64,000 nucleotides of DNA from Planctomycetota bacterium. GTDB taxonomy: Bacteria > Planctomycetota > Phycisphaerae > UBA1845 > UTPLA1. Shown here piece by piece: positions 5,211-35,155 of this stretch. Location of the stretch: contig JAATGM010000028.1 of assembly GCA_015654675.1 (NCBI GenBank), forward strand, positions 1 through 64,000, read 5' to 3'. A model generated the notes under the pieces. It was not told the DNA's origin and searched no databases. It saw only the letters and a program-made list of their open reading frames with translations. Within the stretch, counting starts at the first letter, position 1. Every line of letters begins with the position of its first letter. A program made the translations under genes and the position numbers.

Positions 5211-6357
5211 TCGACGATGGTTGATGCTGGGCGCGATGAGCGTCGCGGCCGCGACGGGAACGGCCAGGGCGCAGTCGCCGGGCGACGCGATGCCCACGCG
5301 GCAGGAGCAGTCGAAGCAGTTTGACGATTTGCTGAAGCAGGCGCAGCAGATGGGGCCGTGGGATCGGCAATCGCAACTCAACGAGGAAGCCGTCGGGCTG
5401 GTGTTTCAGCGGCAGGGCTGGTCGAGCGAGCCGGATCAGTTCGCGCTCGGCATGTTGCGCGAAGTCGATCGGGTGCCGCCGTGGCAGATGCAGCAGCGAC
5501 AGGACGTCTTCCTGCGCTCGATGCAGTCGCGCTACAACCTGACCGAGGCGCAGAAGACGCTGCTGAACGGCAAGCTTCAATACGAGGGCATGCGTCTGAC
5601 ATTCAAGTATTTCAAGGACGCGACGCCGATCGCGATGGAAGCGATGAAGGCGCGAGCAGATGGCAAGCCCTTCACGCCCGAGCAGGTGGCGCGCTGGAGC
5701 CGGACCATGCAACCGATGCTCGACGACGGGCGACAGTCGATTGAGCGCGTGGCGGGCACGCTGAGTGAGACTATGACGCCCGAACAGCGGCGGCTGATGG
5801 ACACCGACCTCAAAGCGTTCCAGAAGCGACACGAAGACGTGGTGAAGATGGTCGGCAAGTGGGAGCAGGGCCAGTGGGACCCGCGCGACTGGGGGCTCGA
5901 CCACGATCCGGCCCACGCGGCGCTGGTGGCCTCGAAGCAGGCCGAACAGGCCCAGATGGCAGCGCTGCAGCAGATGCCGGGACTCGAACGGGCCGCCCGG
6001 CCGGACGACGAATCGAGCTGGGAGCGGTATGTGCGCGAATTCGGGGCCGCGCGGGGCTTTGACGCGGTGCAGACGAAGTCGGCCCGGGCGATCCTGAAGG
6101 AACAGGTATCGCGGGCGAAGAATTTTCGCGCGGCGCATTCGGCTCAGCTCGCGACGCTGCAGCGCGATCTGGCCGCGGCTTCCGATCCGGCGAAAAAGGC
6201 GGAAATTCAGAAAGACATGGACGGCGAGTTGGCGCCGATCGGGGATCTCTTCAAGGAGCTGTGCAACCGCCTGGAGGAGCTTCTGACGGCCGAGCAGCGT
6301 GAGCGAGCCGGGCCACGCGCTCCCGCCGCCGCAGGAGCCCGCGCTGGGTCGGGCTGA
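5200..6357 (+). CDS. Secreted helical protein of unknown function
   Basis: A 385-residue protein with an N-terminal signal-like stretch (LMLGAMSVAAATGTARAQ). The remainder is highly charged and Gln/Glu rich and is predicted to be helical (RQEQSKQFDDLLKQAQQ, TPEQRRLMDTDLKAFQKRHED, EIQKDMDGELAPIGDLFKELCNRLEELLTAEQ). No enzyme motif is seen. Its pattern resembles exported proteins in which TPEQR-like segments are common, but I cannot name a family. The ATG at 5200 overlaps the preceding gene by 11 bases; ATG 5224 is an alternative. Its last 107 bases overlap the convergent sigma-like gene. Confidence 0.7.
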   Translation: MVCDRRWLMLGAMSVAAATGTARAQSPGDAMPTRQEQSKQFDDLLKQAQQMGPWDRQSQLNEEAVGLVFQRQGWSSEPDQFALGMLREVDRVPPWQMQQRQDVFLRSMQSRYNLTEAQKTLLNGKLQYEGMRLTFKYFKDATPIAMEAMKARADGKPFTPEQVARWSRTMQPMLDDGRQSIERVAGTLSETMTPEQRRLMDTDLKAFQKRHEDVVKMVGKWEQGQWDPRDWGLDHDPAHAALVASKQAEQAQMAALQQMPGLERAARPDDESSWERYVREFGAARGFDAVQTKSARAILKEQVSRAKNFRAAHSAQLATLQRDLAAASDPAKKAEIQKDMDGELAPIGDLFKELCNRLEELLTAEQRERAGPRAPAAAGARAGSG

Positions 6358-7144
6358 GTGAAGCCAGGAAGGCGGCGCGCTGCCAGGTCGATTCGAGACG
6401 GGCGGGCAGCGCTGAGCGGCAGCCGTCCGGCACGCGCCGCGCAAAGCGGCGAATCCAGCGAAATGCGACGTCGCGACGGAGCCGGGCGCGGGTGGCCCGC
6501 AGGGCGCGGCGTTCGACACGAGCGACGGCGATGATGGCGAATTGGCCGTCGCGGGCGATGGCTCGAATGGGGGTTCGCAATTCGGGTTGGGGAATTTTCA
6601 AACGCTCGTCAAAGACGCGATCGATGAGCCGGACCATCCGCGCGCGGCGGGCATGATTGCACATCCGCCGGCGGGCGCGCGTCATGGCGCGATCGATGCG
6701 GGCGCGAATCAGATCGGCAATGCTCGTCCCGGCAACCGTGACGACAGACGGGGCGGGTAGCTCATCAAGGCGGATCGGGCGCTGCGGCCGGTGGACTGTC
6801 GGCGCGGCGCTGGGGTCGTGGCGCGAGCGGGATTTCCGGGCACGTCGTTTTTGCGTGGCGCTGGGAATGCGCAACATGCCGCGCTCGGCCAGAAACTGCC
6901 CCATGGCGGCATGCACGCGTGCGAGCGCGAAAGGCGCGAAGTCGCCGTGCCGGTCCCGGTGGTGGTCGCGCACGGCGACGGTGAGGGCGAGACAGCCCTC
7001 CTGAAACAGGTCGTCGGCGAGCGCGGCGGCGCGACTTCCGCAACGGCGAAGCTGTTCGTTGAGCTTCCGTTGGACGAGCGGAATGTGACCGCTGACACGT
7101 TTTGACTGGGGCCCCGACAGGGCGATGATGCTTCGCTCGGACAT
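6251..7144 (-). CDS. Sigma-70 region-2-like protein, Arg-rich C-terminus
   Basis: A 297-residue protein. Residues 20-100 resemble sigma-70 region 2: LVQRKLNEQLRRCG, then LADDLFQEGCLALTVAVRD, FAPFALARVHAAMGQFLAERG and LRIPSATQKRRARK, matching the usual DLxQEGxxGLxxA, FxxxAxxxIRxAI and RIP order. No region 4 helix-turn-helix is recognisable. The C-terminal 180 residues are unusually Arg rich. The start at 7144 has GGGAG 8-10 bases upstream. It has its own promoter, overlapped by a LexA-like box, and converges on the gene ending at 6357 with a 107-base overlap. It may be a specialised sigma factor or a derivative that has lost promoter -35 recognition. Confidence 0.55.
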   Translation of the reverse strand: MSERSIIALSGPQSKRVSGHIPLVQRKLNEQLRRCGSRAAALADDLFQEGCLALTVAVRDHHRDRHGDFAPFALARVHAAMGQFLAERGMLRIPSATQKRRARKSRSRHDPSAAPTVHRPQRPIRLDELPAPSVVTVAGTSIADLIRARIDRAMTRARRRMCNHARRARMVRLIDRVFDERLKIPQPELRTPIRAIARDGQFAIIAVARVERRALRATRARLRRDVAFRWIRRFARRVPDGCRSALPARLESTWQRAAFLASLSPTQRGLLRRRERVARLAHAARPSEAPPGGCTAP

Positions 7145-7182
7145 GGCTGGGCTCCCTATGTGCTGGCCTTTTCTCGAATACC

Positions 7183-7212
7183 GAACATAGTACGAACATT
7201 TCGCTGAGTCAA
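7183..7212 (-). promoter_or_regulatory. Promoter with overlapping LexA-like GAAC-N7-GAAC box
   Basis: Reading the minus strand, TTGACT (7212-7207) and TATGTT (7189-7184) are separated by 17 bases, a good sigma70 promoter. The direct repeat GTTC-N7-GTTC (GAAC at 7183-7186 and 7194-7197 on the plus strand) covers the -10 box. The same spacing is the SOS box of alphaproteobacterial LexA. Confidence 0.6.
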
Positions 7213-7298: not shown

Positions 7299-8018
7299 TC
7301 AGACCAGCATAGGCAGCACTTCGTCGATGGAGCGCAGCGCGGCGCGGACTTGCTCGGGTGCGGCGGATCGAAGATCAACCGCATCTTCGGTCTTGAACGG
7401 CCCGACGGCCGAACGTGTGAGGGCGGTGCAGACGGCTCCGCAGCCGAGCGCAACGCCGAGGTCGCGGGCGATGGCGCGAATATAGGTGCCGCGGCCGCAG
7501 TGGATGACGATGTCGACGTCGGGCCAGCGGTAGTTTTTGATTTCGATTGAATCGATTCGGACCGGGCGCGGTCGGATGGGAAGCGGTTCGGTTGGTCCGT
7601 CCTTGCCCGCGGCGCGGCGCGCCCGCTCGTAGGCCGGTTTGCCCCGGATTTTCACGGCGCTGTAAACCGGAGGAATTTGTTCGATCTCGCCGACCATGGT
7701 GGCGAGCACCGCTGCGATGCGATCCATTCCCGGGTCGGCTGCGCCCGCCACCGGTTCCAGCGGATACTCGGGGTCGAAGGTGGCATTGGTGACACCGAGG
7801 CGAAAGGTGGCGGCGTACGTCTTGGGGAGGGCCATGAGCCGTTCGACGAGTTTGGTGGCCTTGCCGACACATGCGACGAGCACGCCGTCAGCGAAGGGGT
7901 CGAGCGTGCCGGCGTGGCCGACGCGTTTCTCACCGAGGATGGGGCGAAGGCGATAGGCGTAGCGTGCGCTGGTATAGACGGTGGGTTTGTAGAGGGTGAT
8001 GACGCCGTCGACGGGCAT
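7299..8018 (-). CDS. truB: tRNA pseudouridine(55) synthase TruB
   Basis: A 239-residue enzyme that isomerises U55 in the T-loop of tRNAs. The catalytic aspartate is D40 in GHAGTLDPFADGVL. Other family marks are the opening DGVITLYKP, the KTYAATFRLGVTN strand, QIPPVYSAVKIRGKPAYERAR and HCGRGTYIRAIARDLG. It lacks a long PUA domain, as many bacterial versions do. It begins 2 bases after the DsbD-type gene stops, so both are on one message. Its usual partner ribF is not adjacent; ribF lies at 47.5 kb as a fusion. Confidence 0.95.
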   Translation of the reverse strand: MPVDGVITLYKPTVYTSARYAYRLRPILGEKRVGHAGTLDPFADGVLVACVGKATKLVERLMALPKTYAATFRLGVTNATFDPEYPLEPVAGAADPGMDRIAAVLATMVGEIEQIPPVYSAVKIRGKPAYERARRAAGKDGPTEPLPIRPRPVRIDSIEIKNYRWPDVDIVIHCGRGTYIRAIARDLGVALGCGAVCTALTRSAVGPFKTEDAVDLRSAAPEQVRAALRSIDEVLPMLV

Positions 8019-34659: not shown

Positions 34660-35155
34660 TATTCAAAATCGGCGATTTGCACGCTCCCGAAAAAAAGTCG
34701 TCTCGTCTAGTTGACTATGACAAACAAAAAACTAACATTTGCCGGATGCCCCCGCCCGTAATGTCGGCGGAGCGGGAAATCGAAACTCTTTGTGCGCAAA
34801 CCCCGGCAACCTCGGGACGCGCGAGCGGTGCGCCCACGACGGCTGATCTTTGAAAACCAAACACGTATCGCAACCCCGCGTGGCTTGCCTGGTTGCCGCT
34901 CAGGATCGGGGAGGTCGTCTCACTCGTCTCACGAGACGGCGTCACAGCAGGGTAAGCCGAATTCGCGCCGAACCCGTGCCGCAGCAGCGGTTTACGCGGC
35001 AATTCCGACCGGCGATGTCCAATGGAATCTCACGAATCTCATCGCGTCCCAAACGTCCGCATAACCAATTATCACTTTTATCACCGATACGGTAATCGCC
35101 TCGGTGAACGACGGAACACGGTGCAAGTGCAGCCGCGGGGGACTCGCTTCTTCTA

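Follow-up and report, generated by a model that had tools for sequence, protein, structure and literature searches.

The core of the SOS regulon consists of lexA, recA, imuA-imuB-dnaE2, and genes for Y-family polymerases. The place of ImuA-ImuB-DnaE2 in this core is described in published work (PMC6511836), and the LexA box of alphaproteobacteria is given as the direct repeat GTTC-N7-GTTC (PMC8565304, PMC3323433). Two sigma factors are described in connection with DNA damage. The gene of SigN, an alternative sigma factor carried by plasmid pBS32 of Bacillus subtilis, has a LexA-repressed promoter that is derepressed by DNA damage (PMC10601692). SigG of Mycobacterium tuberculosis is also damage-induced, its dominant promoter being assigned to a RecA-independent damage pathway and not to LexA (PMC3776920). 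The LexA of planctomycetes is said not to recognise the Escherichia coli motif (PMC3108266), and in the literature that we searched we found no LexA-binding motif described for the Planctomycetota.

Here we analyze a box at the promoter of a sigma-like gene in a stretch of 64 kb (the window) from a member of the Phycisphaerae. We estimate at about 0.83 the probability that this box serves as LexA operator (SOS box) in this order of the Phycisphaerae, its structure being a direct repeat of GTTHGG half-sites with an 11-bp period.

The promoter of the sigma-like gene and its conservation

The starting point was an earlier note on this DNA, according to which an exact GAAC-N7-GAAC repeat covers the −10 element of a TTGACT-17-TATGTT promoter. 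Such a repeat is indeed there (GAACATAGTACGAAC, positions 7183–7197 of the forward strand), and the promoter lies on the minus strand. Read on that strand, the −35 element TTGACT (7212–7207), of the TTGA type also found in relatives, is separated by 17 bp from the −10 element TATGTT (7189–7184). The latter falls within the presumed operator, GTTCGT-N5-GTTCGG (7178–7197, minus strand). Some 40 bp past the box and the −10 element, at 7144, is the ATG of the sigma-like gene (6251–7144 with the stop codon, minus strand), which codes for 297 amino acids. The upstream neighbor, outside the operator, is a gene at 7299–8018 (minus strand) that from its sequence we take to be truB-like; a homolog of it is close to the sigma-like gene in five of the 29 loci of relatives.

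The exact repeat was rejected as stand-alone evidence because it is too common. It has 128 copies (69 + 59) in the 4.93-Mb draft genome, against 66 (36 + 30) for a reversed control, and matches with at most one mismatch are not above expectation in the window (47, two of them exact, versus 53.7 expected). Much more information comes from the relatives. Homologs of the sigma-like protein are present in 74 of the 114 genomes of the order, this genome included, and a direct repeat of 11 bp, GTTYGGTATATGTTAGG, is conserved in the promoters of the relatives. In the upstream DNA of 29 relatives and of the window's own gene, a motif near GTTYGGTATATGTTAGGTAT recurs at the −10 element. The clade motif is a direct repeat with a period of 11 bp, GTTHGG-N5-GTTAGG (also written GTTYGG-N5-GTTAGG), which 26 of the 29 promoters of relatives match at 14 or more of 20 positions. 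Judged by these matches, the box of the window is a diverged copy of the clade repeat, at the homologous place. As its second half is GTTCGG, the pattern GTTC-N7-GTTC arises in the window copy. In G105, the relative that matches best (42% identity), the distance from the box to the −35 element equals that of the window. A TTGA-type −35 element (at least five of six positions) lies exactly 17 bp from the −10 element in ten of the 29 relatives, and 17–19 bp from it in 13. The box points toward the gene in 29 of 30 loci, the remaining one having no box; in one relative (G032, locus L043) it is 358 bp upstream of the protein match, beyond the stretch scanned for promoter layout.

A 20-bp weight matrix was trained on 26 sigma-like promoters of relatives, leaving out this genome and three weaker promoters (L027, L037, and L043). 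Scores on the 26 training promoters are circular, and the loci of lexA, recA, the Y-family genes, and the window's own genome are outside the training set; the score thresholds, 12 and 16, were picked by eye. The window box scores 16.1, the highest value of all positions on both strands of the 64 kb, and none of 40 simulated Markov-1 windows contains a score of 14 or more. The richer conserved motif in the window is thus more than chance. The same score is lower than that of every one of the 26 training sites (at least 20.2). A second matrix match in the window (34717–34747, minus strand, 14.2) overlaps a third half-site and has no clear gene after it.

The earlier note had also spoken of an unusual sigma-region-2 gene. 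The window protein matches this region with 22.1 bits, below the Pfam cut-off of 24, yet all 26 aligned members of the family match it (E ≤ 0.01). The profile of the family matches SigA at 6.2e-18, and residues 8–89 of the structural model superpose on region 2 of SigE (Z 12.4, rmsd 1.8), the whole-chain rmsd being large. Pfam region 4 gave no match in the 26 aligned members. The C-terminal half is conserved, with helices predicted with high confidence; the alignments of the family profile to RpoH, SigB, and RpoD extend into it, and TIGR02937 covers positions 16–228 in the protein of one relative. By these profiles and predicted helices, this half looks like region 4. A Foldseek search of the PDB with the model returned nothing at E ≤ 0.001 (best 0.011), so that the sigma assignment rests on the profiles and on region 2. 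Given region 2 in all 26 members, the match to SigA, and a C-terminal half that resembles region 4 while lacking a family match, the protein is likely to have sigma activity.

The same motif at SOS genes of the order

As a 17-mer with at most one mismatch, the motif is rare, occurring 21 times in 17 genomes of the family, the reversed control giving no occurrence. Beyond the sigma-like gene, imuA-imuB, a Y-family polymerase, and dnaE2 are among the places found, these names being based on sequence and on Pfam matches in relatives. The sigma-promoter matrix (score of at least 12) was then applied to 1.5 kb upstream and 1.5 kb downstream of genes, omitting three loci shorter than 2.9 kb (L127, L081, and L096). 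A box is present upstream of lexA in 22 of 28 loci, of recA in 12 of 16, and of Y-family/imuB genes in 13 of 15, versus none downstream (0/28, 0/16, and 0/15). The lexA gene is usually not the first one, the box being about 0.4–1.1 kb upstream, ahead of another ORF. At L013:97-904 and in the lexA loci L068–L096, an ORF ending in LxxLGPxGL reaches or overlaps the start of lexA, and the box precedes that ORF. The spacing of the half-sites varies: among the lexA loci, spacing 11 scores at least 15 in 17 of 29 and spacing 12 in eight of 29, and at recA spacings 10 and 12 score too. The box points away from recA in 11 of the 12 boxed loci and away from the Y-family/imuB genes in eight of 13. Such use in either orientation is compatible with an operator but not with a promoter element.

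A looser pattern has 251 matches in the 114 genomes of the order versus 89 for the control; among the 150 places listed, 24 are upstream of lexA and 18 upstream of the sigma-like gene. At the scale of the class, the strict motif with at most one mismatch is found in 99 of 397 sampled genomes. The genes beside the box were clustered from 90 loci (30 + 60), using a longest-ORF rule that left 110 singletons, many of them spurious. The clusters are an imuA-like gene (13 loci), an ABC-ATPase with a GNAT-like part (nine), the Y-family polymerase (seven), the sigma-like gene (five), a gene of the lexA operon (three), dnaE2, DUF1579, and DUF5131 (two each), two groups without Pfam match (three and three), and two further pairs. 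The ABC-type ATPase/GNAT-like gene has the box at its promoter in L174, L175, L182, L183, L203, L211, L215, L233, and L243, and by eye also in L060 and L065; we know of no role of this gene in DNA repair. The DUF5131 genes are those of L236 and L241, and the two groups without Pfam match those of L188, L223, and L225 and of L198, L202, and L210.

The distribution has two exceptions. The family f3 has LexA and few boxes, and the sigma-like protein was not found in any of its genomes (none is among the 74 positive of 114). Four of its lexA loci (L079, L081, L084, and L085) have promoters with a shifted variant that has a GTTAGGTTAT-like start; the LexA site may have changed in this family. In the genome G001, a draft in 470 contigs that is 94% complete, boxes are present and a match to LexA was not found.

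DNA-damage control of the sigma-like gene, which the earlier note had offered as an inference, is now the best reading, because the box overlaps the −10 element, is found again at the corresponding position in relatives, and belongs to a motif that marks lexA, recA, imuA, imuB, dnaE2, and Y-family genes. The sigma-like gene is accordingly best read as a predicted, conserved member of the SOS regulon of the order, probably switched on upon DNA damage. LexA bound to the box over the −10 element would keep RNA polymerase off the sigma-like promoter. Upon DNA damage, RecA-stimulated self-cleavage of LexA would free the promoter, the sigma-like protein would be made alongside RecA and the ImuA/ImuB/DnaE2 mutagenesis proteins, and it could then launch a second wave of transcription.

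LexA and the boxes of the window's own genome

The LexA of this genome matches PF01726 and PF00717 (the LexA DNA-binding domain and the S24 peptidase), and with TIGR00498 it scores 173.2 bits, passing the NCBIfam equivalog cut-off of 110.95. It aligns to solved LexA over its length, and by eye the Ala-Gly cleavage site, the Ser, and the Lys are kept. Among named records, a set that may omit those of this genome, the closest is the LexA of a Phycisphaerae MAG (72%). By all these matches, the gene is a complete and standard lexA.

With the 20-bp matrix, the scores in this genome are 19.1 for imuA, 16.9 for recA, 16.2 for imuB, and 16.1 for the sigma-like gene. The promoters of imuA, imuB, and the sigma-like gene have a common TTGACT/TTGATT-17-TATGTT layout with an equal offset of the box; only part of imuA is present, at the end of a contig, and it was recognized from its 44% identity to the imuA-like protein of a relative. 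Divergent from recA is an ECF-like gene (L014:1464-2048) that has sigma regions 2 and 4 and whose promoter region, common to both genes, contains the recA box. At lexA there is a weak repeat over the −10 element (6.5 on a half-site score), and a better-scoring repeat is nearby, away from the homologous place. A copy of GAAC-N7-GAAC at lexA (C5:92924) was rejected as the predicted box because it sits within codons 7–12 of the gene. The earlier note had proposed to look for the same box at recA and lexA and would have counted a different one against its reading. No exact GTTC-N7-GTTC was seen upstream of either gene, although the box at recA is a variant form of the 11-bp repeat found at the sigma-like gene, which makes this a near miss. 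The box does have the alphaproteobacterial spacing that the note had attributed to it, with a period of 11 bp, but the clade motif, GTTYGG-N5-GTTAGG, has a half-site of its own; it is not an alphaproteobacterial LexA box, and to label it so is no more than an analogy.

In this genome, the loose pattern shows no enrichment (47 matches versus 76 for the control) and for this reason was rejected as a definition of the regulon. Twelve loci with this pattern were read, and only imuA (L102), imuB (L109), a DUF1579-like gene (L118), and the gene of the window (L098) are backed by relatives. The DUF1579-like gene (C21:3540-3556) scores 26.8 and has boxed homologs in two relatives (L167 and L169). Stronger sites than that of the sigma-like gene also precede genes without known SOS link (L097, 27.3; L100, 23.4; L099, 19.9). 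By their scores, the boxes of this genome have drifted. A clean genome-wide motif does not emerge, and within this genome the argument is carried by positional homology and by the common layout. The low score of the sigma-like site, the loose pattern without enrichment, and the strong sites at genes without known SOS link speak against a LexA operator.

It is improbable, if the least so among the alternatives, that the box is an inherited SOS box which has decayed and is non-functional in this species. The sites of this genome score under those of the relatives, the left half, GTTCGT, departs from the consensus, and the lexA site is weak; against decay, the imuA, imuB, and sigma-like promoters hold one exact layout and recA is still boxed.

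Slightly less probable still is a DNA-damage regulon whose box is bound by a protein other than LexA, such as an OmpR/PhoB-type regulator or a PafBC-like activator. Many OmpR/PhoB-type regulators bind 11-bp direct repeats, which is what the box is. The weak lexA site of this genome, the variable spacings, the family f3, and G001, boxed without a LexA match, point against LexA as the binder. However, G001 is a draft in many contigs, the LexA of the window's genome is complete, and the lexA operon is boxed in 22 of 28 loci, as autoregulation predicts. LexA is the economical answer, since the lexA operon is boxed in most relatives, the protein is complete here, and the box is used in either orientation.

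That orientation also disfavors a promoter element recognized by a sigma factor of its own, for which the sigma-like protein would be a candidate. Such an element, which we consider very unlikely, would fit a box that overlaps the −10 element and points toward the sigma-like gene in all boxed loci, but not the opposite direction at 11 of 12 recA and eight of 13 Y-family/imuB loci, and the TTGA-type −35 element suggests the housekeeping sigma factor. A chance match, for which the 128 exact copies in the genome and the 47 near matches against 53.7 expected could be invoked, is the least credible of all; the comparative data already contradict it, with the box at a matching position in relatives and the motif recovered independently at lexA, recA, and imuB.

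Comparison with described systems

Taken as a LexA operator, the box would provide a testable LexA motif for a planctomycete order and a case of a direct-repeat LexA box outside alphaproteobacteria. The regulon flags unstudied genes, such as that of the ABC-ATPase/GNAT protein, as candidates for the damage response. With a widespread sigma-like gene as predicted SOS target, DNA damage may set off a cascade of sigma factors; if so, the SOS response of the order would have a built-in second tier, a sigma factor by which RNA polymerase is redirected once DNA has been damaged. A broader proposition has, in our view, slightly less than even odds: that the direct-repeat LexA operator of this order and part of the class arose apart from the alphaproteobacterial one, and that the SOS response has a second tier through a LexA-repressed chromosomal sigma factor.

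Compared with the alphaproteobacterial LexA box as published, the box described here is also a direct repeat at SOS genes, with a half-site starting with GTT and an 11-bp period. It differs in the planctomycete half-site, GTTHGG, in the A favored in the second half, and in a TATAT-like spacer, and the exact GTTC-N7-GTTC of alphaproteobacteria is found only in the window's own copy. The genes of the SOS regulon core are boxed here as well, the sigma-like gene, the ABC-ATPase/GNAT gene, and others being added. As in SigN, the predicted arrangement is a sigma or sigma-like gene with a LexA-repressed promoter. As described, SigN is plasmid-borne and has further promoters and a different LexA box, whereas the gene analyzed here is chromosomal and present in 74 of the 114 genomes of the order. 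The parallel with SigG is that of a sigma gene induced by damage, here by prediction, but the dominant promoter described for SigG is not controlled by LexA. A sigma-like gene on the chromosome that is predicted to belong, as a conserved member, to the SOS regulon of an entire order appears to extend these known arrangements.
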